DNA from: Alcanivorax sp. | GTDB taxonomy: Bacteria > Pseudomonadota > Gammaproteobacteria > Pseudomonadales > Alcanivoracaceae | Assembly (NCBI GenBank): GCA_013823245.1 | Contig: PNLU01000008.1 | Span: 1 to 53,520, forward strand | Reading direction: 5' to 3' | DNA: 53,520 bases | In this document: positions 2,040-24,821 of the stretch, one piece after another | Numbering within the stretch: position 1 is the stretch's first letter | Layout of the letters: each line of letters opens with the position of its first letter | Notes under the pieces: generated by a model | Database searches by the model: none | What the model saw: only the letters and a program-made list of their open reading frames with translations | Told to the model about the DNA's origin: nothing | Position numbers and translations under genes: made by a program

Positions 2040-3032
2040 TTACTTTCTGGCCTCTTGCCGTCTTATCCGGCCAGGTGAGGTGCCAGTCCAGTTGCGAAAG
2101 GCCTTTGTGAAGCTGGCCTGGTCGCTGTAGCCAAGTCGCTCGGCAATATCGGCAATACTTATTTTCCCTTCGCTGAGATATTGCCGTGCCAGGCGGGTAC
2201 GCACTTCATTGCGCAGATCACTGAACTGCATGCCTGCATCCTTGAGATGGCGACTGATCGTGCGGTTTGTGCTGCCCAGGCTCTCCGCCACCCGATCCAG
2301 CGTGCATTCGCGACCGGGTGCCTGCTCAATTCGCTGGCGTATGCGGGCCACGATGCGCAGTGCCGCTTCGGATTGGGGTTTGTGGTCGCAGCGCTCCTCA
2401 TCGCGGGCCCCCGCCCGGCGCGGCGGCCGGGAGACCACCAGACCGTCATGGGGCTCGCCCAGTCGTACCTCGCAACCGAAAAGCTTTTCGTACACAGGCA
2501 GCAGGTGCGTGTCGCGTTGCTGCATATGGACCCGGTGGCAGCGGGTCATGGACGAAGCGACCCGGCACATGCTGCCCAGATACGCCTGGGCGATAAAATC
2601 ACGCCAGCGCCCCAAAGGCCAGATGTCCTGCAAACGGATCATCGCATGCTCGCCCTGGCTGGCCAGTTGCAGCCCCATCAGGGGTGTGCGCGCATTAAGA
2701 AACTGCACCGCTTTCCATGTGAGTTCGCCTCGATTATGGGTGTTGAGCAAGGAGAAGGCTTGCAGGCCATGAACGGAAAGATCCAGTTCCAGACCATAGC
2801 GCACAGCGAGCGCATCCTGTTGGTCCCAGCGTTCGCATGAGGCGGCGAGGCGAAAGAAATCGCGCACTGAAATATAGGCTTCCGGGTTGTCCAGAAGCGC
2901 CTCGTCGAGATGGCATTCTGCCAGCATGCGGCGCCGTTGAGGACCGTTTTGGCACGCCAGTCTTGAAAGTACACGGGCGTACACAACGGGAACAAGTGGT
3001 GCTTCGGCCAGTAGGGATGTCTCGAACTTCAT
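2040..3032 (-). CDS. AraC-family transcriptional regulator
   Basis: A 330-residue regulator with the layout of the AraC group that carries an N-terminal arabinose-binding-type domain (about residues 20-200, including the segment LACQNGPQRR and the region around DFFRLAASCE). The C-terminal 100 residues contain two helix-turn-helix units: one around RVAESLGSTNRTISRHLKDAG and one around ADIAERLGYSDQASFTKAFRNWTG, which carries the usual AraC signature. The effector is unknown. It lies upstream of and co-directional with lipA, and diverges from the GNAT/GH3/RND gene set across a 256-base region, so either could be its target. The start ATG has a weak AAAGGG-like ribosome site. Family assignment is confident, target is not. 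Confidence 0.93.
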   Translation of the reverse strand: MKFETSLLAEAPLVPVVYARVLSRLACQNGPQRRRMLAECHLDEALLDNPEAYISVRDFFRLAASCERWDQQDALAVRYGLELDLSVHGLQAFSLLNTHNRGELTWKAVQFLNARTPLMGLQLASQGEHAMIRLQDIWPLGRWRDFIAQAYLGSMCRVASSMTRCHRVHMQQRDTHLLPVYEKLFGCEVRLGEPHDGLVVSRPPRRAGARDEERCDHKPQSEAALRIVARIRQRIEQAPGRECTLDRVAESLGSTNRTISRHLKDAGMQFSDLRNEVRTRLARQYLSEGKISIADIAERLGYSDQASFTKAFRNWTGTSPGRIRRQEARK

Positions 3033-3288: not shown

Positions 3289-4098
3289 ATGAGTAACGCG
3301 AGAAAGGCGGTTATTTCGCACTATCGCCCCATAAAAAAAATAACGCCGCTGGATATCCAGCAGATGTACGAGATCTTCAGGAAGTATTATGCCAACACGA
3401 CCCTGGAGATATTCCTTCGAGATCTGGGCAAGAAGCAGGGGCTGTTCCTGATTCGTGATCGCGAGACCCGACGCATTGTCGGCTTCTCCACCGTCACCAA
3501 CATGCCGTTGAAATATGGCAACAGAACAGTGCGTGGCGTCTTCAGTGGCGACACGATTATCGAGCGCGAATACTGGGGTTGCCGGGCGCTGAACAAGCTC
3601 TTTTTCCTCTATATGCTGCGCACCCGGCTTCGCTATCCGACCACGCCGGTGTTCTGGTTGCTGATCTCCAAGGGCTACAAGACCTATCTGCTGCTGGCCA
3701 ACAATTTCCCCCGTTACTATCCGCATCCGGAGGGCCGCTACGACCGCTATGCACCGATGGTGCGTGAGTACTGTGATGCCCTGTTCCCCGGTTGCTTTGA
3801 TCCGGAAAGAGGTCTGCTGGACTTCGGCAAGGACTACCAGTATCTGGAGGGGGATGTTGCGGAGATCACTGCGGAAATGCGTCGCAAGTCGGCCAAGATC
3901 GACTTTTTTGAGCGCAGCAACCCATCCTGGCGCGAAGGTACCGAATTGCCCTGCATCGGTCAGGCGGGGTATCTCGATTTCCTGCTGTATATCCGTGACC
4001 GGTTTTTCCGCCGTAGCGCCCCCGTCCGCATTGCGGCCCCCGCCCCGGAGGAGGCCAGCGAGGTGAGCGGTGCTGCCACCCAGCAGGGTTCCTCATGA
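3289..4098 (+). CDS. GNAT-like acyltransferase, first gene of the GH3 cassette
   Basis: A 269-residue cytoplasmic protein with features of the acyl-CoA N-acyltransferase (GNAT) fold: a helix-rich N-terminus, a central strand (IVGFSTVTNMPL), a VFSGDTII strand followed by an acyl-CoA-loop-like GCRALNKLF turn and helix, then LISKGYKTYLLLANNF. The last ~70 residues are variable and end in a low-complexity Ala/Glu/Pro tail. ATG 3289 is chosen over the in-frame GTG at 3280 because GAAAGG lies 8 bases upstream. The stop overlaps the GH3 start (ATGA), so translation is probably coupled. GNAT is a fold-level call from sequence pattern; substrate and acyl donor are unknown. It probably modifies or supplies an intermediate in the pathway of the following genes. 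Confidence 0.7.
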   Translation: MSNARKAVISHYRPIKKITPLDIQQMYEIFRKYYANTTLEIFLRDLGKKQGLFLIRDRETRRIVGFSTVTNMPLKYGNRTVRGVFSGDTIIEREYWGCRALNKLFFLYMLRTRLRYPTTPVFWLLISKGYKTYLLLANNFPRYYPHPEGRYDRYAPMVREYCDALFPGCFDPERGLLDFGKDYQYLEGDVAEITAEMRRKSAKIDFFERSNPSWREGTELPCIGQAGYLDFLLYIRDRFFRRSAPVRIAAPAPEEASEVSGAATQQGSS

Positions 4099-5753
4099 GT
4101 CTGTCGCACCGTATCGGGCACGGTCTGCTGCGCGCCCTGGTCACCCCGACAGGTCGGCGTTTCCGCGCGGGCCTGGGTGATCTGGAGGCGGTACAGCGCG
4201 CAAATCTGTCGCGCCTGTTGTCCCGCGTGGCCGGGGCGCACCGCGACCAGGTGTTGCCCGCCGTGGACCGGCACTGGCGCTGGGAAGACTTTGCCCGGGC
4301 CCTGCCCGTGACCGGCTATCAGGACTGGCAACAGGTCATCGAGCGGCAGCGCCGTTTTGGTGAGGGCAGCCTGATTCGCTCACCGGTCGCCCGTTACCAG
4401 CCGACCAGTGGCTCGACCTCCGGCGTCAAATGGCTGCCTTATACCGAGATGTTCCTGAGCCAGCTCAACAGCGCCATTGGTGCCTGGCTGCATGACCTGT
4501 ACCGGCAATACCCGCGTATGGCCCACGGCTCGCATTACTGGTCGGTCTCCTGGTTGCCGAACGATATGCGTCAGCAAGCGGATGCCCACATCAACGACGA
4601 CATGAAGCTGCTGTCGTCGGGCCGGCGGCTGCTGGCGTCCCTGACCCAGACCGCGCCCGAGTCGATCTCGCTGGCGCACACCTCGGAAGACGCCCAGTTT
4701 GCCACACTGGTTTATCTGGTCGCAGACGCCCAGCTGTCGGTGATGTCGGTGTGGAGCCCAAGCTTTGCGCTGACCCTGTTTGATCGGCTTTTTGACTGGC
4801 GCGATGAGCTGGTCGACGTGTTGCGCCGGGGGGCGTGGGGACGCCGACAGGCGTCCCTGCAACATCTGCCTTGTCCGCGCAGCCCGCGCGCGGCTGCGGT
4901 GCTGTACGACTGGCAAGGTGCCCCCGAGCCCGCCCTGTTTGCGGCGCTGTGGCCCCGGCTGGCGCTGGTCAGTGCCTGGGACACCGCCGCGTCGACCACC
5001 TGGGCCGATGCCCTCAGGGCGCTGCTGCCGCATGCGGATTTTCAGGGCAAGGGCCTGTGGGCCACCGAGGGCGTCGTCACCTTCCCCTGGCAGGGACACA
5101 CCCCGCTGGCGTATCAGAGTCACGTGTACGAATTCGAAGATCTCGACAGTGGCCGGATTCTGCCCCCCTGGGCGTTGCGCGAAGGGCAGGAAGTGCAACC
5201 CCTGCTGACCACGGGCAGCGGCATGCTGCGTTACCGGATGCAGGATCGTGTGCGCGTCAGTGGTCACCTGGGCAGCGTGCCCTGCCTGACCTTTCTGGGC
5301 CGCGATGACGGCGTGGACATGGTCGGGGAAAAGCTCAGTGCAGTGTTTGTCCAGCAGGTACTGGATGCGCTGCCGCTGGCAGACGGCCAGCGTGTAGTGA
5401 CCCTGCTGGCCGCCCAGGACTGTGACGGCGAGGGCCGCGCCGGATACCTCTTGCTGCTCGACAGTGACCGGCCTGACGTCCCCACAGACAGTGCGCGTCT
5501 GGCAGCGCGCCTCGACGAAGCCCTGGGCCAGCAGTTTCACTACACTCTGGCCCGCAACCTGGGGCAACTGGCGCCTGCCCGGGTGCTGTGCCACCGGCAT
5601 ATGCGCGAGCATTATCTCGGGCTGTGCCGGGATCTGGGCATGATCGAGGGCAACATCAAGATCGAGCCCCTGCGACTGTGGCCCGGGGCCCTGCCTGCGG
5701 CGCTGCGCTTGCCCGCCGCCCGTCAGGGGGAGGTGGACTCATGCGCTGTGTGA
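4095..5753 (+). CDS. GH3-family acyl-adenylating enzyme
   Basis: A 552-residue member of the GH3 family, known from plants as acyl-acid amido synthetases that adenylate a carboxylic acid and join it to an amine. Bacterial members are mostly uncharacterised. Motifs seen: the phosphate-binding loop PTSGSTSGVKWLPYT near residues 100-115, the LWATEGVVTFPW segment, the hinge-like RYRMQDRVRVSG, and FLGRDDGVDMVGEKLS before the C-terminal domain. Length is in the normal range for GH3 proteins. It overlaps the upstream GNAT-like gene by 4 bases and the downstream tandem GNAT gene by 13, indicating one translation unit. Inference: it activates a carboxylic acid (fatty or aromatic) for amide formation, with the adjacent acyltransferases completing the product. 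The substrates cannot be read from sequence. Confidence 0.88.
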   Translation: MSLSHRIGHGLLRALVTPTGRRFRAGLGDLEAVQRANLSRLLSRVAGAHRDQVLPAVDRHWRWEDFARALPVTGYQDWQQVIERQRRFGEGSLIRSPVARYQPTSGSTSGVKWLPYTEMFLSQLNSAIGAWLHDLYRQYPRMAHGSHYWSVSWLPNDMRQQADAHINDDMKLLSSGRRLLASLTQTAPESISLAHTSEDAQFATLVYLVADAQLSVMSVWSPSFALTLFDRLFDWRDELVDVLRRGAWGRRQASLQHLPCPRSPRAAAVLYDWQGAPEPALFAALWPRLALVSAWDTAASTTWADALRALLPHADFQGKGLWATEGVVTFPWQGHTPLAYQSHVYEFEDLDSGRILPPWALREGQEVQPLLTTGSGMLRYRMQDRVRVSGHLGSVPCLTFLGRDDGVDMVGEKLSAVFVQQVLDALPLADGQRVVTLLAAQDCDGEGRAGYLLLLDSDRPDVPTDSARLAARLDEALGQQFHYTLARNLGQLAPARVLCHRHMREHYLGLCRDLGMIEGNIKIEPLRLWPGALPAALRLPAARQGEVDSCAV

Positions 5754-6820
5754 TTCGGCCCGCCACCGCCGAGGATGACGGCGCTATCCTGTCGCTGGTG
5801 CGGCAGACTCCGCAGCCCGGCCGGGTACTGCTCAACTTCGAGCGCGAGCCCAGTTACTTCCATGGCAGCAGCATCAGCTGCCAGCAGGATGATGTCTGGG
5901 TCGCGCGCGCGGCCAACGATAACCAGGTGCTGGCCGTCGTCAATATCGGCCGCCGTCAGGTGTACCTCAACGGCACACCGGTGGCGTTGCGTTACGCTCA
6001 CGATCTTCGCCTGGCGCCTCAGGCCCGAGGCTCGCGCCTGTTGCTGCGGTTGTTCCGTGAACTGGAAACGGTGCTGGCACCCGGCGAGTGGATGTCCACT
6101 GTCATCCTGCGCGACAACGAATTGTCCATGGCCACCGTCGGCAGCGGGCGTGCGGGCTTGCCCACGTATTACCCGCATGGCGACATCACCACCCATCTGT
6201 TGTTTGCGCCGCCCCGGGGTCGTCAGCACGGTCCCCGCGTGACTCGCGCCACGAATGCCGATGTGCCAGCGCTGCGTGAATGGCTGCGTGAGCAGGCGCC
6301 ACGGCGCCAGTTCTTTCCGGTCTACCGCTTCAACGCCTTGCTGGCGGGCTCCCCCTATTACCGGGGGCTGTCGCTGTCCGACTTTTTCCTGGCCTGGCGC
6401 GGACGGCAGCTGGTGGGCGTGGCCGGATGCTGGAACCAGAAGGGCTTCAAACAGACCCGGGTGCTGGCCTATCCCACCGGGCTGGGCTGGCTGCGTCATG
6501 CCTGGAACCTGAACAGCCGCCTGCGCGGCGGGCTGCGATTGCCGCCGGCGGGCGGCACCCTGGATTACCTGATGCTGCATACCCTGCTGGTGGAAGACGA
6601 TGACCCGGCGATTGTCGATGCATTGCTCCGGCGCATGCTTGAGCAGCGCGACGTGCCTGCCCTGAGCACCGGCTTTTTTGATAGTGATCCGGCGGGCGAG
6701 GCGGTGCAGGGATATCGTCGCCAGAGCCTCGGCAGTCGTCATTATCTGGTCAGCTACGATGGCGACCCCCGCGATCAACTGGATGGCCGTTTGCCCTATG
6801 TGGAGGTCGCCCGGCTATGA
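5741..6820 (+). CDS. Tandem GNAT-domain acyltransferase
   Basis: A 359-residue protein that appears to contain two GNAT-type domains. The first spans about residues 1-165: IRPATAEDDGAILSLVRQT, then a strand-loop region RYAHDLRLAPQARGSRLLLRLF typical of the acyl-CoA-binding turn. The second starts near residue 166 with VTRATNADVPALREWLRE and ends around VEVARL. ATG 5741 is preferred because GGGGAGG lies just upstream; it begins inside the GH3 gene. The stop overlaps the next start (ATGA). Two-domain GNAT proteins often keep only one active site; here the RGSRLL turn in the first half looks the more canonical. Substrate is unknown. Its place between an adenylating enzyme and a condensation-like enzyme argues for a biosynthetic role. 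Confidence 0.75.
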   Translation: MRCVIRPATAEDDGAILSLVRQTPQPGRVLLNFEREPSYFHGSSISCQQDDVWVARAANDNQVLAVVNIGRRQVYLNGTPVALRYAHDLRLAPQARGSRLLLRLFRELETVLAPGEWMSTVILRDNELSMATVGSGRAGLPTYYPHGDITTHLLFAPPRGRQHGPRVTRATNADVPALREWLREQAPRRQFFPVYRFNALLAGSPYYRGLSLSDFFLAWRGRQLVGVAGCWNQKGFKQTRVLAYPTGLGWLRHAWNLNSRLRGGLRLPPAGGTLDYLMLHTLLVEDDDPAIVDALLRRMLEQRDVPALSTGFFDSDPAGEAVQGYRRQSLGSRHYLVSYDGDPRDQLDGRLPYVEVARL

Positions 6821-7872
6821 CGACGCTTCCGGTTTATCTGCGCCGGGACGGCACAGCCCCCTGGTTTCGTGCCCGTGATCCGCTTGGTATCTCCAGCGAG
6901 ATTCGAGTGGCCTGGCTGGCGCCGCGCACCGGCGCGATCCATTGGGAATACCTGTCTCATCAGGAGGTGGACGGGCAGGGCGCCATGCAGCGCCTGGCCC
7001 GGTGCCACGGTGCCCGTATCCTGCAGCAGCCCGAGGCCGTAGCCCACCCGGTGCCGGCGTTCAGTCGTCTGGCCTGGGCACGCTGGCGGCAGCAGACCCG
7101 TCCGGCCACACCCATGCCCTTTACCCGCTGGCGGGCCACTTCCACATCCGGCAGCAATGAGGTGTCGGTGGGCTGGTTCAGCGTCGCCGAGACACTGGCC
7201 CTGAAGCAGGCCGCCCGGCAGCGGAGTGTACCGCTGACGGCCCTGTTGCTGTCGGCATTGCACGACATGGTGATGACCCGTCTCGTCGAGCCGGGTACCA
7301 CGGCGGGGGCCTGGCTGTTCCCGGTCAACCTGCGCGGCAGTGTCGAACTGGCTGATCCCGAGGCCAACAACCTGAGCGGTTTTTATTTGCCGCTGCCTGC
7401 GGCGGCGGATGCGGCACTGATCCACAATGCGGTGCGCGAACGTCTGCGTGCCGGCGACCACTGGTGGCTGTGGCATCAGGGGCGCTGGGCCAGCCTGTTA
7501 CCGCAAGCCTGCATCAATTACCTGTACCGGCATCTGCTGGGGCGCAGCAGTTACCTCGGCTCGTTCAGCTATCTGGGGGAGTGGTGGCTGGATTACCGCG
7601 ACAGCGATATTCCGCCGCGCACCGTGATGGCCATCTGCGGGCCCGGCAGCCCGAATCATCCGGTCGCCAATGGCATCCTGATTTGTAACGGCGCGCTGAC
7701 CCTGAGCCTGCGGCTGGACCCGATACTGGGTTGCGACGATGCAGCGCGGGACGCCTGCCTGGCCGCCTGGCAGGACAACCTGCTGGCGCTGTTGCCCGCG
7801 TCGTCCCGTGGCCCGGCGGGTGAGCAACGTCGCCACCTGGCCCCGGATGACCTGCTGGAGGCGCACGCGTGA
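6817..7872 (+). CDS. Condensation/CAT-superfamily acyltransferase-like protein
   Basis: A 351-residue protein with the hallmarks of the CoA-dependent acyltransferase superfamily (CAT, NRPS condensation domains, WS/DGAT, PapA-type). The motif SHQEVDG has the HxxxDG part of HHxxxDG, with His48 as the likely general base and Asp52-Gly53 conserved; the first His of the pair is Ser47. A later FPVNLRG...NNLSGFYLPLP stretch resembles the PVSLR...GN...LPLP core of WS/DGAT and condensation enzymes. No carrier-protein domain is attached. It overlaps both neighbours by 4 bases. It probably joins an activated acyl group to an amine or hydroxyl in the product made with the GH3 and GNAT proteins. The exact subfamily cannot be fixed from sequence alone. 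Confidence 0.72.
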   Translation: MTTLPVYLRRDGTAPWFRARDPLGISSEIRVAWLAPRTGAIHWEYLSHQEVDGQGAMQRLARCHGARILQQPEAVAHPVPAFSRLAWARWRQQTRPATPMPFTRWRATSTSGSNEVSVGWFSVAETLALKQAARQRSVPLTALLLSALHDMVMTRLVEPGTTAGAWLFPVNLRGSVELADPEANNLSGFYLPLPAAADAALIHNAVRERLRAGDHWWLWHQGRWASLLPQACINYLYRHLLGRSSYLGSFSYLGEWWLDYRDSDIPPRTVMAICGPGSPNHPVANGILICNGALTLSLRLDPILGCDDAARDACLAAWQDNLLALLPASSRGPAGEQRRHLAPDDLLEAHA

Positions 7873-9044
7873 CCCGATTGCCCCTGCGGTGGCAAATCGC
7901 CACGACGCTGGCCGTGCTGGCCAGCCTGATACTGGTGCTGTGGTTACTGCAACAGCGGCCCCTGCCGGAAGCAAGAGAACCGGCGCGCGAGCGCGCGGTG
8001 GCCGTGGACGTGGTGACCGTGCAGCCGGGCGTGCGCACGGTGCCGGTGACCACCCACGGTGTCGTGCAGTCCGCCCGCCAGGTGGTGCTGGTGGCGCGGG
8101 TCAGCGGCGCGGTCACCGACGCCCATCCGGCGTTTCGCAATGGCGGCATGGTCGAGCAAGACGACCTGCTGCTCAGTCAGGACCCGGAGCCGTATGAACT
8201 GGCCCTGTCGCGTCAGCGCCACGAAGCCAGCGCCGCACGTTTGCACCTGGCGGATACCCGCGCCCGCGCCCAGGTGGCGCGACGGACCAACGGAGAGCAG
8301 GCGTCGGATTATGCCCGCCTGGTGCCGCACATGGATGAAGCGCAGGGGCGGCTGGCGGCGGCCGAGGCCGGGGTCCGCGATGCTCAGCGGCAGTTGGCAG
8401 AAACCCGGGTCAAGGCACCGTTTGCCGGGCGCTTGCGTGATGTCCAGGTGCAGCCGGGGCAGCAGGTGGCGGCGGGCGAGCGTCTGGCCACCTTGTACAG
8501 CACCCGCAGTCTGGAAGTGCGATTGCCGGTACGCGATGACTGGCTGGCACTGCTGGACATGCCACTGCACGGCAGCCCTGGCGAGCAGGGCCCGGAGGTG
8601 ACGCTTGCCGGGCGCTTCGGCGGTCAGGCCGGTCGCTGGTCGGGCCGGGTCGTGCGCCGCGAAGGCGGCCTGAACGACAACCGCATGATTTATCTGGTGG
8701 CCCAGGTCGAACTGGAAGAAGAGGCGGCTGTGCCGCTGGAGCCGGGCATGCTGGTGGAGGCCACGCTGCGTGGCCGCCCGGCGCCGGAACTGGTGCGACT
8801 GCCGCGCTCCGTGCTGGCGGGCGCCGGGCATATCTGGAAGGTCGATGAAGACGAGCGCCTGCGTCGTGTGCCGGTCACGCCGGTCTATCAGGACGCCGAT
8901 GCTATCTATGTGCAGACCGGTCAACTGGCCCGTGGCGACCGGATCGCCCTGAGCGGTGGCTTGCGCTGGGCAGAAGGCACCCGCGTACAGGCCCGGCCCT
9001 TTGGCCGCACCCTGGACCTCAGCGCTGGCGAGGGCGTGCGGTGA
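7869..9044 (+). CDS. RND efflux periplasmic adaptor (membrane fusion protein)
   Basis: A 391-residue HlyD/AcrA-type adaptor linking an RND permease to an outer-membrane channel. It has an N-terminal membrane anchor (residues ~8-27, with LPLRWQIATTLAVLASLILV), a first lipoyl half (VVLVARVSGAVTDAHPAFRNGG), a helical hairpin rich in Ala/Arg/Glu (~95-145), the second lipoyl half (VKAPFAGRLRDVQVQPGQQV), then beta-barrel and membrane-proximal domains. It lacks a lipobox cysteine, so it is anchored by a helix. The GTG start overlaps the previous stop (GTGA) and its own stop overlaps the next GTG. No outer-membrane channel gene is in the cluster, so a shared TolC is likely. Substrate is probably the product of the upstream enzymes (inference). 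Confidence 0.93.
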   Translation: MTRLPLRWQIATTLAVLASLILVLWLLQQRPLPEAREPARERAVAVDVVTVQPGVRTVPVTTHGVVQSARQVVLVARVSGAVTDAHPAFRNGGMVEQDDLLLSQDPEPYELALSRQRHEASAARLHLADTRARAQVARRTNGEQASDYARLVPHMDEAQGRLAAAEAGVRDAQRQLAETRVKAPFAGRLRDVQVQPGQQVAAGERLATLYSTRSLEVRLPVRDDWLALLDMPLHGSPGEQGPEVTLAGRFGGQAGRWSGRVVRREGGLNDNRMIYLVAQVELEEEAAVPLEPGMLVEATLRGRPAPELVRLPRSVLAGAGHIWKVDEDERLRRVPVTPVYQDADAIYVQTGQLARGDRIALSGGLRWAEGTRVQARPFGRTLDLSAGEGVR

Positions 9045-12000
9045 ACAGTATCCGCTGGTTCACCCGGCGTCCGGCAGTGGCCAACCTGCTGATGCTGGTG
9101 CTGGTTATCGGTGGCGTGCTGGCCATGGGCAAGACCCGCCAGGAAACGCTGCCCAACGTGCCGCTGGATCGTCTCGGCATCATGGTCAATTTTCCCCAGG
9201 CGGCGCCGGACCGGGTTGAGGCGCTGGTGTGCATGCCGCTGGAAAATGCCCTCTATGGCATCGAGGGGCTGGCCGAGATGATCACCGAAGCCCGCGAGGG
9301 CTTGTGCAGCATCACGGTGGATATCGAGCAGGGTTACCAGACCCGCGTGGTACTGGAACAGGTGCGCACCGCCCTGGATGCCCTGGACACCCTGCCAGCC
9401 CGTGCCGGACGCCCCCGGGTTCAGGAACTGGTCGTGCGCAACCGGGTGGCGCGGCTGGTGCTGTCCGGTGAACTGGCGCCCTGGGCACTGTATGCGCTGG
9501 CGCGCGAAGTGCGCTCCGGGCTGCTGGCCAGCGACGTCATCTCGGTGGTGGATATCGAGAACCTGCCCGCCCGGGAACTGGCACTGGAGGTGACGGCGGC
9601 GGACCTGCGCCGCCATGATCTGTCGCTGGCGGAAATGGCGGCAGGTGTACGCACCTCACTGGACAGTGTGGCGGGGGGCATTCTGCGCAGCGGCGAAGGA
9701 CCGCTGTTGCTGGAAACCGGACGCCGCGCCGATGACGCCGGGGCTTACCTGATGCGCCCCCTGCGGCAGTACGGGCACGGAGACGTGTTGCGGTTGGGGG
9801 ATGTCGCCACACCCGGTGACGGTTTCGCCCGAGACACCATGCGTGCCTGGCTGGACGGTGAACCCGCCGTGGCGCTGGATATCTACCGCATCGGTCGTCA
9901 GCAGGTGCTGGATGTGGCGGATGCGGTGCAGGCTTACCGCGACGCGCTGGTATTGCCGCCGGGGGTCAATCTGACCCTGTGGCAGGACGACGCCGAAGCC
10001 TTCCGCAGCCGCTCGGGTATGCTTTGGCGCAATGCTCTGGTGGCGCTGTCGATCCTCGCGGTGGTGCTGACGCTGGCGCTGGGCGTCGGGCTGGCGCGCT
10101 GGATCGCATTGGGCATTCCGGTGGCGATGCTGGGCGCTTGCCTGGTGATGCCGATACTGGGCGAATCGTTCAACACCATCTCTCTGTTCGCGTTCATTCT
10201 GGTGCTGGGCATCGTGGTGGATGACGCCATCATCGTGGGCGAGAGCGTGCACCACCAGCGGCGCCTGGGCTATCGCGGCGAGGAAGCCGCCCTGCGCGGG
10301 GCCGCTGCAGTGGCCCGTCCCGTCACCTTCGCCGTGCTGACCACCGCGCTGGCCTTTGCGCCCCTGCTGTTCCTGCCCGGCGCAGAAGGGGCGCTGATGC
10401 GCGTGGTGCCGGTGGTGGCCATCGCCATTCTGATGCTGTCGCTGGTGGAATCCCTGTGGATACTGCCCGCCCACCTGGCGGGAATCAGCGACCGCCCGAG
10501 GCGCTTTACCGCCGCGTCCGATCGCCTCAGCGAGCGCGTCAATACCGGGCTGGACAAGGTGCTGCTGCGGGTTTACCGGCCCTTGATTGAACGGCTGCTG
10601 GCCTGGCGCTATCCGGTGATTGTCGGGTTTGCCGGGCTGCTGGCGCTGTGTGCCTCGCTGCTGGCCAACGGCTGGGTCAACACCGTGCTGTTCTCGGACG
10701 TGGCGGCCGACCATGTGGTGGCAGAGGTGGTGTTCCCCCAGGGCACCAGCGATCGGCGTACCGGGAATGCCCTGCAGCGGCTGGAAACCTCAGCGATCCG
10801 GCTGGCGGAGGACCTGGAGGCGGCCCACGGTCGTCCGGTGATTGCCCACCGCTTTGCCGAGCAGGGGTTTCACGAAAAGATTTCCAATGCGGCAGACCCG
10901 GACGCTGCCCAGCGGGTGCGCGTGGGCCTGAAGCTGGCGCCCGACAGCCCGCTGTCACCCAACGAGGTGGCGCGCCAGTGGCGGGCGTTGCATGGCCCGG
11001 TGAGCGAGGCGCTGTCGACACGCTTCGATGCCAGCCTGATCCAGACGCGCCCGGATATTCATATCAACCTGTTCCATGACGATCCGCAGGTGCTGGATCG
11101 TCTGGCGGCAGAACTGGAGGGCTTGCTGCGCAGCCTGGCCGGGGTACACGAGGTCAGCAACAGCCTGCACGCGCGCCGCAGCCAGGTGGATATTTCGCTG
11201 ACCGAGGCCGCCCGCCATGCGGGCCTGAACGAAGACAGCCTGGGCAGCCAGGTGCGCGACGCGGTGCACGGCATCGAGATCGACCGCATGCCGGAGCAGG
11301 ACACCGAGGTGCCGGTGATGCTGCGCCTGCGGGCTGACGACACCGATTCGCTCTGGGCCCTGGCGCAGATGCCGGTGCGCCTGCCCAGCGGCGACTGGGC
11401 GCCGTTGTCGGTGATGGCCACGCTGGTGGAGCGCGATGCGCCCGCCTTGATGAGCCGCTTCGATCGGCGCCGCAATGCCACCGTGTCCGGCTTCGTCGAC
11501 AGCCGTATCAGTTCACCGGGTGCGGTGATGCGCCAGGTGCAGGCCGGGATGCTGGATGACCTGCATGAGATCGCCCCCGAGGCCGACTGGGGGATCGCGG
11601 GCAAGCCGAAGGCCATCGAGGCCTTTCTGGATCATCTGAGTTACACCTACCTGCTGGCGTTGATCGGCATGTTCTTCGTGCTGACGGTGTTGTTCGGCAC
11701 CTGGTCGCAGCCGTTTCTGGTGATGAGCGTGATTCCGTTCGGTCTGGTGGGGGCGGTGCTTGGGCACCTGCTGCTGGGGCTGGACATGACACTCTGGTCG
11801 GTGATCGGGGTGATTGCAGTGAGTGGTGTGGTGGTGAACGACAACCTGGTGCTGATTGATGAAGTGAACCGGTTGCGTCGTGACCAGGTGCCGCTGCATG
11901 AAGCGGTGGTGTCGGCCGGTGCTGCACGTTTCCGGCCAATCATGCTGACGACGGTCACGACTTTCCTCGGTGTGGGGCCGCTGTTGCTGGAGGGCAGTGC

Positions 12001-12274
12001 GGAGGCGGCGTTTCTGGTGCCGATGGCCGTGTCGCTGGCATTCGGGGTGCTGTTTGCCACGCTGGTGAGTCTGGTGCTGGTGCCGTTGCTGATGTGTGCG
12101 GGTGCGGATATCCGACAGTGGTGGCTGCGCCAGCGGGGTGAGCCGCAGGCCGATGTCGACGGGGCCTACCGGCAGGGCAGGGAAACTGTTGGAGGGGCAA
12201 GAAACCCCTATACCGATCCGGTGCTGCAAGCGGCGTGGGAGGCCGGTCGTCATGACCGGCATCCCGCCGACTGA
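9041..12274 (+). CDS. RND-family efflux permease
   Basis: A 1077-residue inner-membrane proton-driven transporter of the RND superfamily, in the expected size range. It shows the usual duplicated plan: TM1 near residues 12-30, a large periplasmic domain, TM2-6, TM7 near 525-545, a second periplasmic domain, and TM8-12. The proton-relay pair is D394-D395 in GIVVDDAIIVGE of TM4. The segment VVARPVTFAVLTTALAFAPLLFL is a typical RND TM5/6 region. A GTG start overlaps the adaptor stop. The last ~60 residues are hydrophilic. A 7-bp hairpin lies in the final codons (12242-12260), and only 4 bases separate the stop from the convergent gpmA. It is the last gene of the GNAT/GH3 operon and most likely exports that product. 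Confidence 0.95.
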   Translation: MNSIRWFTRRPAVANLLMLVLVIGGVLAMGKTRQETLPNVPLDRLGIMVNFPQAAPDRVEALVCMPLENALYGIEGLAEMITEAREGLCSITVDIEQGYQTRVVLEQVRTALDALDTLPARAGRPRVQELVVRNRVARLVLSGELAPWALYALAREVRSGLLASDVISVVDIENLPARELALEVTAADLRRHDLSLAEMAAGVRTSLDSVAGGILRSGEGPLLLETGRRADDAGAYLMRPLRQYGHGDVLRLGDVATPGDGFARDTMRAWLDGEPAVALDIYRIGRQQVLDVADAVQAYRDALVLPPGVNLTLWQDDAEAFRSRSGMLWRNALVALSILAVVLTLALGVGLARWIALGIPVAMLGACLVMPILGESFNTISLFAFILVLGIVVDDAIIVGESVHHQRRLGYRGEEAALRGAAAVARPVTFAVLTTALAFAPLLFLPGAEGALMRVVPVVAIAILMLSLVESLWILPAHLAGISDRPRRFTAASDRLSERVNTGLDKVLLRVYRPLIERLLAWRYPVIVGFAGLLALCASLLANGWVNTVLFSDVAADHVVAEVVFPQGTSDRRTGNALQRLETSAIRLAEDLEAAHGRPVIAHRFAEQGFHEKISNAADPDAAQRVRVGLKLAPDSPLSPNEVARQWRALHGPVSEALSTRFDASLIQTRPDIHINLFHDDPQVLDRLAAELEGLLRSLAGVHEVSNSLHARRSQVDISLTEAARHAGLNEDSLGSQVRDAVHGIEIDRMPEQDTEVPVMLRLRADDTDSLWALAQMPVRLPSGDWAPLSVMATLVERDAPALMSRFDRRRNATVSGFVDSRISSPGAVMRQVQAGMLDDLHEIAPEADWGIAGKPKAIEAFLDHLSYTYLLALIGMFFVLTVLFGTWSQPFLVMSVIPFGLVGAVLGHLLLGLDMTLWSVIGVIAVSGVVVNDNLVLIDEVNRLRRDQVPLHEAVVSAGAARFRPIMLTTVTTFLGVGPLLLEGSAEAAFLVPMAVSLAFGVLFATLVSLVLVPLLMCAGADIRQWWLRQRGEPQADVDGAYRQGRETVGGARNPYTDPVLQAAWEAGRHDRHPAD

Positions 12275-12278
12275 GCTA

Positions 12279-13031
12279 TCAGTGCTCGCCCTTGCCCTGG
12301 TTGGCCACCGCAGCGGCGGCTTTCTCAGCGGCATCAGCATCACCCAGATAACCGCTGCGAATCGGTTTCAGGTCGTCATCCAGCTCGTACACCAGCGGGA
12401 TACCCGTGGGGATATTGAGCTTCAGGATCTCTTCATCGGACACCTGGTCGAGATGCTTCACCAGCGCCCGCAGGCTGTTGCCATGGGCTACGATCAGCAC
12501 CTGCTTGCCAGCCCGAATCTGCGGCGCGATCTCGGCGTCGAAGTAAGGCACGAAGCGGTCCACGGTGTCTTTCAGGCTCTCGCTCAGCGGAATCTGGTCT
12601 TCGCTCAGATCCTTGTAAACGCGCTGGCGGCCCGCGTAGCGCTCATCGTCGCGGTCCATCTTCGGCGGCGGGGTGTCATAGCTGCGGCGCCAGATCAGCA
12701 CCTGCTCATCACCGTATTTCTGCGCGGTTTCGGCCTTGTTCAGACCTTGCAGGGCGCCGTAGTGACGCTCATTCAGGCGCCAGTTGCGAATCACCGGAAT
12801 CCACATCTGGTCCATGCCGTCGAGGATGGTCCACAGGGTGCGAATCGCGCGCTTGAGCACTGAGGTGTAGGCCACATCAAACTCGAAGCCTGCCTCTTTC
12901 AGCAGCTCTGCGGCGCGGGCGGCTTCGGCGCGGCCCTGCTCGGTCAGATCGACATCTTTCCAGCCGGTAAAGCGGTTGTCCTGGTTCCAGACGCTCTGGC
13001 CATGGCGGACCAGCACGAGTTTCGTCGTCAT
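12279..13031 (-). CDS. gpmA: 2,3-bisphosphoglycerate-dependent phosphoglycerate mutase
   Basis: The 250-residue cofactor-dependent enzyme interconverts 3- and 2-phosphoglycerate in glycolysis and gluconeogenesis. The phosphohistidine motif [10 protein letters not shown] has His10; the second catalytic His is in [16 protein letters not shown]-equivalent residues appear as [11 protein letters not shown], and the length matches the family. ATG 13031 is used because it begins exactly at the conserved [11 protein letters not shown] start; an upstream in-frame GTG/ATG extension has no similarity. An extended -10-like TGCTATCCT lies about 50 bases upstream on the same strand. Confidence 0.96.
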
Positions 13032-13120
13032 CGGGCAATCCCTGTATCGCGAGGTTTCGGGTGCAAGTTTTGAGGGTGCGAAGGATAGCAGGGCAATTCG
13101 CCCGGCGCAGCCCCGCCTGC

Positions 13121-14197
13121 TCAATAGACCGGGATCGCCCAGCGCCCGATCCGGTCGCCGCCCAGCGTGCCCATGTACAGATAGCCCTCATGCTCCGTCG
13201 CCGAGGTCAGCTCGTACAGCATCTCGCCATCCGGGTCGCGCGGCGCCATGCGAATCACACCGTCGGTATCCAGAAACAGCACCATGCCGTAATGCTCCGG
13301 CGCCGGTTGCAGCCAGGCGGGCAGGCGCGCGGTGAGATTGCGCAGGCGCGGCGAGTCACTGATCGCATCAAGCTGCGGATTGCGACGGCTTGGCAAGGCC
13401 ACCCAGTAGCCGCTGCCGTCCGGGCGCGTGGAAATATTGTCCGGGAAGCCCGGCAGGTTTTCCGCAAACAGGTCACGGGTGCCCGCCAGCGGGCCGTCCA
13501 GCCAGTAGCGCGTGATCCGGTAGCGGCCGGTTTCCGTGATCAGCAGGTACTGGCCGTCCGCCGACAGCGTTACGCCGTTGGCAAAATAAAGGTCCTCCAG
13601 CACGACCCGCGTTTCGCCAGTGTCCGGATCAAAGGCGAGCAGGCGGCCGTTCGGGCGCCCTTCGATCAGGTCCAGCTGGTAGTCGTCCAGACCGAAGCGG
13701 GTGGAGGCATCGGTGAAGTAGATGACGCCGTCCGGGGCGATGGCCACGTCGTCGGCAAACAGGATGGTCTGGCCGTCCACGCTGTGGGTCAGCACCTCGA
13801 TCTCGCCATCCGGTGCCACACGCAGCAGACCGCGATGGGCATCGGCCACCAGCAGGCTGCCGTCTTCATCGAACTCCATGCCCAGCGGTCGGCCGCCGGT
13901 GTTGGCCAGCAGGGTGATCTGCCCGTCGTCACGGCTCACGCGCACAATGCGACCGTCCACGGTGCCGGTGTAGATGTGCCCATCGCGATCAATGGCGATA
14001 TCTTCCGGGCCATCCAGCACGCCCAGCCCCATGAGGGTGGCCTGGCGCAGGTCGGTGTTTTCCGCCAGAACGCCTTCGTCGGCGGGGGGCGGTGGCGCAG
14101 CCCAGCCCACGGCATCCACCTGGCCGGGTCGGGTCAGCAGAGCGGCCATTATCAGTACCAGTGCCGTCAGGATCAGCAATATTTTCAGTGTGCGCAC
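13121..14197 (-). CDS. Strictosidine synthase/SMP-30-like beta-propeller protein
   Basis: A 358-residue protein with an N-terminal hydrophobic segment (residues ~4-21) acting as a signal anchor, followed by a six-bladed beta-propeller. Repeated blade signatures are seen: [63 protein letters not shown], and [28 protein letters not shown] and the Asp/Asn pattern fit the strictosidine-synthase/SMP-30-gluconolactonase superfamily, where members act as lactonases or esterases. In bacteria the substrate is usually unknown. It is divergent from rnd and upstream of gpmA on the same strand, with 89 bases between them. Confidence 0.85.
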
Positions 14198-19665: not shown

Positions 19666-20682
19666 TTATTCGAGGTTCTCGCTGCACTCGCCACGCGAGC
19701 TGTCCAGTCGGCAGCGGATGTTGCGCAGCAGGGACATCATTTCCTTGCTGTACACGCCCTGTTCGGTCAGGTCGATACGGGCTTCGCGCATCATTTCGTC
19801 GTAGCGCATGGTGTCATCCTCGCTGACACGGATCCAGCGATCGTCGCTGACATCGTTGTAGGCGTTGTCCACCACGGCTTGAGCCCGGTCATACAGGTTC
19901 TCGAACACGTACTTGCGTGACCAGGCGGCAAAGCCCTCGGGCAGCTTGTCGTGACGTGCAATCAGCTGCATGGTCAGCTGGCCCAGGGTGTAGTCGACGA
20001 TACCGCCGTCCGGGCCCATGCCGCGATACAGTTCCAGTGCGCTGTAGGCCGCCATCGGAGCAAAGCAGATGTCCACGCTATGGTTATTGAAGCGACCGGA
20101 GAAGTTGGTGATATCAGACATCACCGGCGACATGCCGACGCGGGAAGCCATGCGGCCCTGGGCCACGTCATATTCCATCACCGCGATGGACTTGCCGGCC
20201 AGCGCGTTGACGTTGTTGATGCTCTGGTCCTTCACGAACAGATAGGCCGCACCCATGGGCGCGATACCGATGACTTCGTAGGGGCCATTGCGCAGGTTCG
20301 GGGTGATACGCGGGTTTTCGCTGGCCAGCACCTGGGCCACCATGCGCAGCGCATCATAATTGGGAATAGCGCCGATGGAATCCAGGCTGCCGGTGTAGCT
20401 GTTGAGCTGGCGACCACGGATACCGGTGATGGCGGCCACATCACACTGGCCACCGGTCAGTTCTTCATAGGCGATATTTTCATCAGTGAAGGCGCGCATG
20501 CGGAAATCGACACCTTGGCCGAGGGCGGCGGTGCGGTAGTCGCGCATCAGGTTGAAGATGTCGCCGGAGCTGCCGATGATGTCGAACACGCACAGACGAA
20601 GTTGAGTGTTGGCACTGGCCTGGGACGTAAAGCCCAGCGCCAACGCGGCCACTGCCACGGAGAGAAAACGGGAAATGCGCAT
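19666..20682 (-). CDS. AdeT1/2-like periplasmic solute-binding protein (copy 1)
   Basis: A 338-residue secreted protein resembling the family named putative solute-binding protein AdeT1/2, which has the fold pattern of TRAP substrate-binding proteins. A signal peptide ends after residues ~22-23 (LGFTSQASAN). Conserved blocks shared with two paralogues in this window are LCVFDIIGSSGDIFN, GGQCDVAAITGIRGRQLN, LDSIGAIPN, DICFAPMAAYSALELYRGMG and a C-terminal RNIRCRLDSSRGEC disulphide-type pair. ATG 20682 is chosen for the AGGAGG site 8 bases upstream. It follows the TatT-like gene, with an 11-bp hairpin between them. It lacks the ~60-residue N-terminal region of the other two copies. It is the most likely cognate receptor for the permease; the ligand is unknown. 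Confidence 0.82.
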   Translation of the reverse strand: MRISRFLSVAVAALALGFTSQASANTQLRLCVFDIIGSSGDIFNLMRDYRTAALGQGVDFRMRAFTDENIAYEELTGGQCDVAAITGIRGRQLNSYTGSLDSIGAIPNYDALRMVAQVLASENPRITPNLRNGPYEVIGIAPMGAAYLFVKDQSINNVNALAGKSIAVMEYDVAQGRMASRVGMSPVMSDITNFSGRFNNHSVDICFAPMAAYSALELYRGMGPDGGIVDYTLGQLTMQLIARHDKLPEGFAAWSRKYVFENLYDRAQAVVDNAYNDVSDDRWIRVSEDDTMRYDEMMREARIDLTEQGVYSKEMMSLLRNIRCRLDSSRGECSENLE

Positions 20683-20701
20683 GGTTACTGCCTCCTGATC
20701 C

Positions 20702-20729
20702 GGTAGCGGCCGCACCCCCGGCCGCTACC
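20702..20729 (-). promoter_or_regulatory. Intercistronic hairpin between tatT-like and binding-protein genes
   Basis: GGTAGCGGCCG (20702-20712) and CGGCCGCTACC (20719-20729) form a perfect 11-bp stem with a 6-base loop. It sits directly upstream of the AGGAGG ribosome site of the binding-protein gene and has no T run, so it looks like an RNA processing or stabilising element rather than a terminator. Confidence 0.6.
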
Positions 20730-23495: not shown

Positions 23496-24659
23496 TTACT
23501 CCACCGGATTGGTACACTCCCCCCGCCGATTATCAAACCGACACCGAATCCGCCGCTGCAACGTCAACATGTCCGCGTCGTAATACCCTTCCTCGCGTAA
23601 CTGCAACCGCGCATCCTGCATCATCGTTTCGTATTCCTGCTTGTCTTCCTCGGGAATCTGGATCCACCACCGATCCGGCACCTTCGCCGCTTCGGCGTTC
23701 AACTGTTCCATGATTTCCCCATAGCCCTCGAAGAACGCCTCACGCACCAGCTGCGCCACCTCATTGGGAAACTTGTCCACCCGACCAATCAACTGCATCG
23801 TGATCTGCGCCAGCGGATAATCAATAATGCCGCCCCTGTCACCCATGCCCCGATACAATTCCAGAATCTCGTAGGCGATCAACGGCGCAGGCAGCACATC
23901 CACCACCCCGTTGTTGAACATGTTGGGCGCACTCACCAGATCCGCCGCCACCGGCGTCGCACCGATCTGCGACACCATCCGTGCCTGGGTCGGATCATAT
24001 TCCAGCACCGGAATCCGTTTGCCCGCCGCCCGCGCCAGCGAATTGATGTTCTTGTCGTTCACAAAGACATAGGCACCGCCGCCCGGCGCAATACCCATCA
24101 CCACATAATTGTTGCTGACCATCTTGTCGGCCATGCGCGGGCTTGCCAGCACCTGCAACAACATGTGCATGTGATCGTCGGTCGGCAGGCCGCCCACCGA
24201 ATCAATGGTGCCGGTGAACTTGTTGAACATGCGCGCCCGCAGTCCGGTCATCAGTGCGGCATCGCAACGCCCGGCGCGTAACTCTTCCACCAGGACCCCT
24301 TCGTTGGTGTAGGGCACCAGCTCCACATCCACACCGAACTCCATCACCCGCAACCGCTGGTCCCGCGCCGCCTGATAGATCGGCCCGTTGCGCCCGGCGA
24401 TATCCCAGACACACAAACGGCGCTTCACCAGCGCATCATCGGGAAAGCCCGATGCCCGGCGCATTGCCGCCACACGCTCTTCAATGGGCAGGCTGGTGTC
24501 AAAGGCAATGGCGCGCAATTGCTCGGCCATTTCCGCCGTGATTTCCACGCCAGGCGCCAGCTGTGCCAGTTCTGCACGTTGTGCCGGTGTGATCTCCACC
24601 GCCCAGGCGGGCAGGGCGATGCTGGTCAGCAGGGTCAACAGGAAGGCTATTGTTTTCAT
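23496..24659 (-). CDS. AdeT1/2-like periplasmic solute-binding protein (copy 2)
   Basis: A 387-residue secreted protein of the same family as copy 1, with a signal peptide ending after PAWA (residue ~20). It adds an N-terminal helical region of about 60 residues (ITPAQRAELAQLAPGVEI onwards) that copy 3 also has and copy 1 lacks. The shared core is LCVWDIAGRNGPIYQ, RCDAALMTGLRARMFNKFTG, TIDSVGGLPTDDH, NNGVVDVLPAPLIAYEILELYRGMG and the C-terminal RRIRCRFDNRRGEC. ATG 24659 gives a clean signal peptide; GTG 24677 is an alternative. It is convergent with the UbiB-like gene and divergent from the acylase gene. Likely an orphan receptor, probably for a related ligand; not proven. Confidence 0.82.
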   Translation of the reverse strand: MKTIAFLLTLLTSIALPAWAVEITPAQRAELAQLAPGVEITAEMAEQLRAIAFDTSLPIEERVAAMRRASGFPDDALVKRRLCVWDIAGRNGPIYQAARDQRLRVMEFGVDVELVPYTNEGVLVEELRAGRCDAALMTGLRARMFNKFTGTIDSVGGLPTDDHMHMLLQVLASPRMADKMVSNNYVVMGIAPGGGAYVFVNDKNINSLARAAGKRIPVLEYDPTQARMVSQIGATPVAADLVSAPNMFNNGVVDVLPAPLIAYEILELYRGMGDRGGIIDYPLAQITMQLIGRVDKFPNEVAQLVREAFFEGYGEIMEQLNAEAAKVPDRWWIQIPEEDKQEYETMMQDARLQLREEGYYDADMLTLQRRIRCRFDNRRGECTNPVE

Positions 24660-24821
24660 TCTCACGCTCACTTTCACACTCGCTCTCCGCGGCAGCGCCG
24701 CTGCAATGTCCTGATGCCTCAGGGTTGTAGCAGGCGCCGGGCATCACGGCCTATGACCCATCAGACCCGCGATGTGACTTTGGAGTCAATTTAGGATTTT
24801 TGTAAATCCATGAGGTTTATC

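Follow-up and report, generated by a model that had tools for sequence, protein, structure and literature searches.

A conserved six-gene GNAT-GH3-GNAT cassette with an RND exporter in Alcanivorax, a candidate for carrier-free acyl-amide synthesis

The six-gene locus

The window analysed here is a stretch of 53,520 nucleotides from an Alcanivorax sp. genome (contig PNLU01000008.1). On its + strand, at 3289-12274, it carries six open reading frames (ORFs), g1 to g6, with successive overlaps of 4, 13, 4, 4 and 4 bases. An earlier note on this DNA had read these overlaps correctly; its term for the genes, a single translation unit, is stronger than the data, which are gene overlaps. The six genes are a conserved cassette that recurs beyond chance, and we propose that it makes and exports an acyl amide. 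All six ORFs end in TGA; g1 to g4 start with ATG, and g5 and g6 with GTG. The cassette genes and the two genes that flank them are as follows.

3289..4098, + strand: g1, GNAT-fold protein by predicted model, with the conserved stretch FWLLISKGYKTYLLLANNF
4095..5753, + strand: g2, GH3-family adenylating/amide synthetase (PF03321, E 4.9e-28), motifs intact
5741..6820, + strand: g3, tandem-GNAT-like protein of 359 aa, by weak sequence matches only
6817..7872, + strand: g4, stand-alone CAT/condensation-fold protein by predicted model
7869..9044, + strand: g5, RND periplasmic adaptor (TIGR01730, HlyD_3)
9041..12274, + strand: g6, RND permease (ACR_tran, 4.2e-123)
2040..3032, - strand: AraC-family regulator (HTH_18 2.9e-20, Arabinose_bd 6.9e-18), divergent from the cassette
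12279..13124, - strand: gpmA (NF010713, 6.8e-127), a flank outside the cassette, convergent, 4 bp past g6

Proteins of the cassette

The g2 protein matches PF03321 with 98.7 bits and GH3_M with 44.2 bits (E 2.1e-11), both against a cut-off of 23.6, and GH3_C with 17.6 bits, which is under that cut-off. It has three nucleotide-binding motifs, TSGSTSGVK at residue 104, LWATEG at 321 and GMLRYRMQD at 376, the first of them a residue short of the reference motif, as well as a C-terminal GNIK stretch (GNIKIEPLR at 519). Motifs and GNIK stretch are kept across 22 aligned sequences, where the nucleotide-binding motifs are mostly invariant. In a search of solved structures with the g2 profile, the closest are plant GH3 structures (1.4e-14). 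Family match and intact motifs bear out the assignment of g2 as a GH3-family adenylating enzyme, and the motifs would fit the formation of N-acyl amides.

No Pfam or NCBIfam family scores above its curated cut-off for g1, g3 or g4. For g1 and g4 we use AlphaFold models built on homologues from the fetched loci; each has a pLDDT (predicted local distance difference test) of 87. The g1 model is a predicted GNAT fold, with AAC(2') as its best Foldseek match (2.2e-6, template-modelling score 0.55 by target length) and N-myristoyltransferases ranking lower. By eye its coenzyme A (CoA) loop motif is degenerate, and its profile finds nothing reliable among solved structures. The g4 model is a predicted CAT/condensation fold. 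Foldseek matches it to AzeD (5.8e-10), to epimerisation and condensation domains, and to PapA5 and VibH. There are 165 PDB chains with E <= 0.001, and the 50 chains listed are mostly condensation, epimerisation or cyclisation domains of nonribosomal peptide synthetases (NRPS) and acyltransferases. Within the HHxxxDG motif, H48, D52 and G53 are invariant in 14/14 sequences and the first His is absent in 14/14; the profile relation of g4 to PapA5 is very weak (0.59). The g3 protein appears by eye to have two GNAT-like halves. Its Acetyltransf_9 match is weak both in the window protein (0.043) and in the relative L074 (0.0016), the best PDB match of its profile is the 164-residue protein BH1408 at an unreliable 0.19, and a comparison of g1 with g3 covers 53 columns with a probability of 39. 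The description of this part of the cassette as two GNATs and a condensation/CAT-like protein stands by predicted fold for g1 and g4, and for g3 by those weak matches only.

The adaptor g5 matches RND_mfp (TIGR01730) at 1.3e-32, with 113 bits against a cut-off of 94.9, and HlyD_3 at 6.1e-13. The permease g6 has VVDDAI at residue 392, whose paired Asp we take to act in proton relay. Adaptor and permease lie in the cassette; candidates for the outer-membrane factor are seven frames, with 14 OEP matches between them, that all lie on other contigs. Contig C55 carries the single PP-binding domain of the assembly (92% complete), in a frame of 83 residues that is presumably the fatty-acid acyl carrier protein (ACP), and no carrier protein with such a domain is found in the cassette pathway. 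So low a count makes a thiotemplate route unlikely; the absence of a visible carrier-protein gene that the earlier note had remarked on holds for this assembly.

Conservation across 46 loci

We collected 46 loci (L handles; G handles are genomes) in a pattern-based scan of genome contigs, selected by similarity to one GH3. They comprise 31 from Burkholderiales, mainly Aquabacterium, and 15 others; L024 and L030, titled only Proteobacteria, are counted as Burkholderiales from their clade position in the GH3 tree. All of g1 to g6 lie on one strand in 10/46 loci, every one of them among the 15 non-Burkholderiales, and it is this recurrence of the same order that makes it more than chance. The full order is found in Alcanivorax, Exilibacterium, Bermanella, Oleispira and Thalassolituus, with overlaps or short gaps between the genes except for a 560-bp gap before g5 in L053. 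The core of g1, g2 and g3 is present in 44/46 loci, the other two (L047 and L052) being cut by contig ends, and the gap between g1 and g2 is at most 30 bp in 45/45 measurable loci. The g5-g6 pair follows the core on the same strand in 12 of the 15 non-Burkholderiales loci, which span at least five genera, and the two genes overlap in 8 of these 12. L026 and L035 have g5-g6 and no g4 match. An AraC-type homologue stands divergent beside g1 in 9/15. Within the window's family, a full-length GH3 is found in 26/36 genomes, its own included, and a fragment in one (G029); other families of the same order give a weak GH3 match in 1/21 genomes.

In Bermanella and Oleispira (L054:10245-11473 and L055:18282-19598), an extra condensation-like gene with HHxxxDG comes directly past g6, overlapping it in L055.

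The Burkholderiales loci

Within about 7 kb downstream of g3, on the other strand, 26/31 Burkholderiales loci have a condensation-like gene. The Pfam matches of its own protein are weak (Condensation 0.0012, PapA_C 0.002), and hhalign compares it with g4 at a probability of 54. It was not found in L037, L041, L047, L052 and L061; contig ends truncate L047 and L052, and the L037 stretch stops 3 kb past g3. In 11/31 loci, genes for HlyD, an ABC ATPase and an ABC-2 permease follow g3 on the same strand; in L052 the HlyD and ABC ATPase genes are visible before the contig ends. A GH3 tree was built from 32 rows: the window, 7 others and 24 of the 46 loci. Its core rows group in a single clade (99/98), with the 11 Burkholderiales rows as a subclade of their own (100/100). 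One gain of this exporter followed by later losses would fit, since the ABC set is present in all three of the deepest rows of that subclade (L048, L028 and L061). An upstream gene that seemed conserved in Aquabacterium, "c10", was rejected because it proved to be an artefactual ORF that runs antisense to genes of the ATP synthase.

The condensation-like genes bear on a reading of the cassette as a detoxification system. On this reading the GH3 would join toxic free acids of aromatic or short-chain type to an amino acid, much as plant GH3s treat hormones, and the resulting conjugate would leave through the pump. Xenobiotics are common substrates of RND pumps, and the plant GH3s that are the closest solved structures conjugate small acids. 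We consider this reading improbable, as it leaves unexplained both the condensation-like gene near the core in the two lineages and three further acyltransferase-type proteins.

Survey of class genomes

A survey of 369 genomes of the class, the window's included, took as the GH3 subfamily matches with E below 1e-50. g1 occurs in 9/369 genomes and the GH3 subfamily in the same nine (Fisher p 3e-18, relatedness among genomes ignored); six more genomes have a distant GH3 only (7.1e-24 to 5.7e-13) and no g1. The possibility that this GH3 occurs only as a lone gene, raised in the earlier note, is not borne out by the other eight genomes, where g1 lies directly beside GH3 in six. In G222 g1 and g2 are at contig ends, and in G356 they are on different contigs. 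g3 is near GH3 in 7/8; in the eighth, L078, the contig ends past GH3. The Aquabacterium genus group has a g1 match in 41/42 genomes, a core-type g1 in 37/42, and at least two g1 matches in 26/42. Seven stretches of this group (L112-L118) carry g1-type genes without GH3 amid what appear by eye to be housekeeping genes, with an ABC exporter nearby in L112.

The GNAT-GH3-GNAT core or parts of it also occur in oxygenase-rich clusters of distant Gammaproteobacteria (L072-L078, L109 and L110). We annotated the neighbours in representatives by family search and in the remainder by eye. They include Rieske oxygenases (L074, L077), B12-radical-SAM proteins (L077), a P450 (L075) and a weak AurF match (L073), and in L074 fatty-acid desaturases and a 919-residue NqrB/FG-GAP/ASPIC fusion. 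A literature search on these clusters found no paper. Their g1-GH3 genes need not have a role in growth on hydrocarbons.

Association with alkane oxidation

The AlkB of the window's genome has a match at 1e-50 in 39/46 core-bearing genomes, compared with 24/369 class genomes. Among the class genomes, AlkB is found in 3/9 with g1 and in 21/360 without it (p 0.016). The same contrast is impossible inside Aquabacterium because 41/42 genomes have g1. A wax-ester link was set aside, with WS/DGAT in 21/369 class genomes and in 2/9 of those with g1 (Fisher p 0.087).

A genome of 4,928,223 bp, which we take to be that of A. dieselolei B5, carries g1-g4, and the A. hongdengensis locus (L029) has the full six-gene order. 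A review (PMC6669457) credits A. dieselolei with proline lipids and A. hongdengensis with a lipopeptide of undefined structure.

The product could also be a signal or an antibiotic, an N-acyl amide that is regulatory or inhibitory instead of a surfactant. The divergent AraC-type regulator in 9/15 non-Burkholderiales loci would suit such a product, as would the related GNAT-GH3-GNAT genes in oxygenase-rich clusters, which are usual for specialised metabolites. The genes are widespread for that role (full-length GH3 in 26/36 family members, core-type g1 in 37/42 Aquabacterium-group genomes), the association with AlkB argues against it too, and we find it quite improbable.

Proposed function

Our preferred reading, to which we give about an even chance, is a carrier-free route to an acyl-amide amphiphile of the lipoamino-acid type, which the cassette would both assemble and export. 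A free fatty acid, for which alkane oxidation is a plausible source, would be adenylated by the GH3 and its acyl group passed to the amino group of an amino acid or of a comparable small amine. The CAT-fold protein and one or both of the GNAT-type proteins could add or move further acyl groups, taken from thioesters of CoA or ACP, or could modify the head group. Export would fall to the RND adaptor and pump, working with an outer-membrane channel whose gene lies elsewhere, and outside the cell the product may aid growth on hydrocarbons as a surfactant or a surface lipid. What we infer here takes in the substrates and product, the order of the steps, the job of each acyltransferase, the export and the surfactant role. 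The core is linked to exporters of two kinds, RND and HlyD/ABC-2, and this linkage supports a pathway that makes and exports a conjugate.

Several observations weigh against this reading. The earlier note counted the pump as a member of the cassette, which holds for the same-strand RND pair in 12/15 non-Burkholderiales loci and is not universal, as the fetched stretches of the 31 Burkholderiales loci have no g5 or g6 match at 1e-6. The full ABC set is absent in 20/31 of these loci, among them the contig-cut L047 and L052; other exporter kinds were not searched for. In four Alloalcanivorax-type cases (L040, L043, L044 and G019, the last as L108), g1-g4 are followed by an RND/membrane-fusion-protein pair on the opposite strand, with 33-35% identity. 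g1 has lone paralogues: among eight further stretches with g1, GH3 is present in one (L119) and missing from the other seven, and in G478 the lone copy is the sole g1 match. G029 is a single contig of 3,120,143 bp that we take to be A. borkumensis SK2, which is known to produce a surfactant; all that it retains is a C-terminal piece of GH3 (L079:10055-10366) beside gpmA, apparently a decayed cassette. AlkB is present in only 3 of the nine class genomes with g1. The AlkB association points to a hydrocarbon-linked amphiphile in a suggestive way only, because AlkB is shared by descent in about four lineages, the loci were picked via one GH3, and 7/46 core-bearing genomes are without an AlkB match. 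Finally, in the passages of PMC5174103 available to us, the genes named for the dodecane response of A. dieselolei are proline-metabolism genes, pssA and yciA, and there is no occurrence of the terms multidrug and efflux or of the three locus-tag beginnings tried. The idea that the cassette makes and exports a conjugated small molecule is partly supported, by the conserved cassette, the GH3 motifs and the exporter linkage, and is weakened by a pump that is not universal and by the lone g1 paralogues.

The exporter evidence also bears on a reading, in our estimate rather unlikely, in which the GH3 and the acyltransferases make a cell-bound, ornithine-lipid-like membrane aminolipid, and the adjacent pump serves general efflux. 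It agrees with the 20/31 Burkholderiales loci without the full tested exporter set and with the weakly related, opposite-strand pumps of the four Alloalcanivorax-type loci. It also agrees with OlsH/OlsI, the one bacterial GH3 pathway that we found described, which makes a membrane lipid according to the part of PMC12493201 available to us. It would not account for the same-strand g5-g6 pair past the core in 12/15 non-Burkholderiales loci, overlapping in 8/12, nor for the transporter of a different kind that follows g3 in 11 Burkholderiales loci.

Returning to an exported lipoamide, we can extend the proposal to a broader and distinctly doubtful one. Carrier-free, GH3-driven lipoamide assembly and export might be common to alkane degraders of the Gammaproteobacteria and Burkholderiales, with a fixed GNAT-GH3-GNAT core and varied condensation-like acyltransferases and exporters (RND or HlyD/ABC-2). 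It might be the missing pathway for the lipoamino-acid biosurfactants of Alcanivorax, such as the proline lipid. If so, the distant cores with Rieske oxygenases, B12-radical-SAM enzymes and desaturases would yield oxidised variants. Bacterial GH3s are widespread, and the literature searched gave one worked-out pathway, OlsH/OlsI. Through the cassette, a GH3 subfamily is connected with acyltransferases, exporters and hosts that oxidise alkanes, which makes the cassette a directly testable candidate for lipoamino-acid surfactant synthesis in oil degraders. The core is also a genome-mining handle for carrier-free lipid conjugates overlooked by searches keyed to NRPS or polyketide synthases (PKS).

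Neighbouring genes

A scan for promoters and terminators gives 1 promoter-like site (expected 1.0) and 8 terminator-like sites (expected 5.2). The gpmA flank is also found in five loci (L016, L017, L029, L045 and L049), as well as beside the L079 GH3 fragment. On the other side of the cassette, lipase and lipase chaperone genes lie beside it at 99-1882, matched only in L016, L017 and L051 among the 46 loci; the lipase gene itself (926-1882) lies outside the cassette and on the opposite strand. The next gene past gpmA, at 13121-14197, encodes a Strictosidine-synthase-like protein of the SMP-30 type. Further along are two AdeT-type solute-binding protein genes (PF19582) at 19666-20715 and 23496-24677, with an ABC1 kinase-like gene between them.

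Comparison with known systems

We found no paper on this cassette, in a literature search that most subscription journals lie beyond. The earlier note knew of no described pathway with this layout and called bacterial GH3 proteins poorly characterised; one bacterial GH3 pathway is already described, OlsH/OlsI of Singulisphaera acidiphila (PMC12493201).

The plant GH3 acyl acid amido synthetases (JAR1, GH3.5, GH3.12 and GH3.15) have family and motifs in common with g2 and are distant in sequence. They are single enzymes of hormone homeostasis, and we know of no comparable cassette for them. PapA5, VibH and AzeD share with g4 the predicted fold and the HxxxDG part of the motif; g4 differs in that its first His is replaced and that the assembly has no NRPS/PKS-type carrier protein. 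The Alcanivorax biosurfactants, the proline lipid of A. dieselolei and the glucolipid of A. borkumensis, come from the same producer lineage and setting, and the proline lipid is a lipoamino acid. The passages of PMC6669457 and PMC5174103 available to us name no conjugating enzyme for it, and its link to the cassette is our hypothesis.

The closest likeness in chemistry is with OlsH, a planctomycete GH3 that makes N-acyl ornithine from a free fatty acid, ATP, Mg2+ and ornithine, and whose motif-1 serine is essential (PMC12493201). The counterpart of motif 1 in g2, the TSGST region, is intact. Both systems have a bacterial GH3 with three nucleotide-binding motifs, and the proposed chemistry is alike, an N-acyl amino acid from free fatty acid and ATP with a partner acyltransferase and no carrier protein. 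The OlsH/OlsI operon has an alpha/beta-hydrolase acyltransferase and an N-methyltransferase, and its product is a membrane lipid (PMC12493201). The cassette differs in having two proteins of GNAT type, one of CAT fold and an exporter, OlsH being compared here by its description. Family searches of the six cassette genes give no match to an alpha/beta-hydrolase or a methyltransferase, and because the OlsI family is not found among them we do not count the cassette as a member of the OlsH/OlsI pathway. We rate it as a variant of GH3-dependent aminolipid synthesis that is carrier-free, uses several acyltransferases and is often linked to an exporter.

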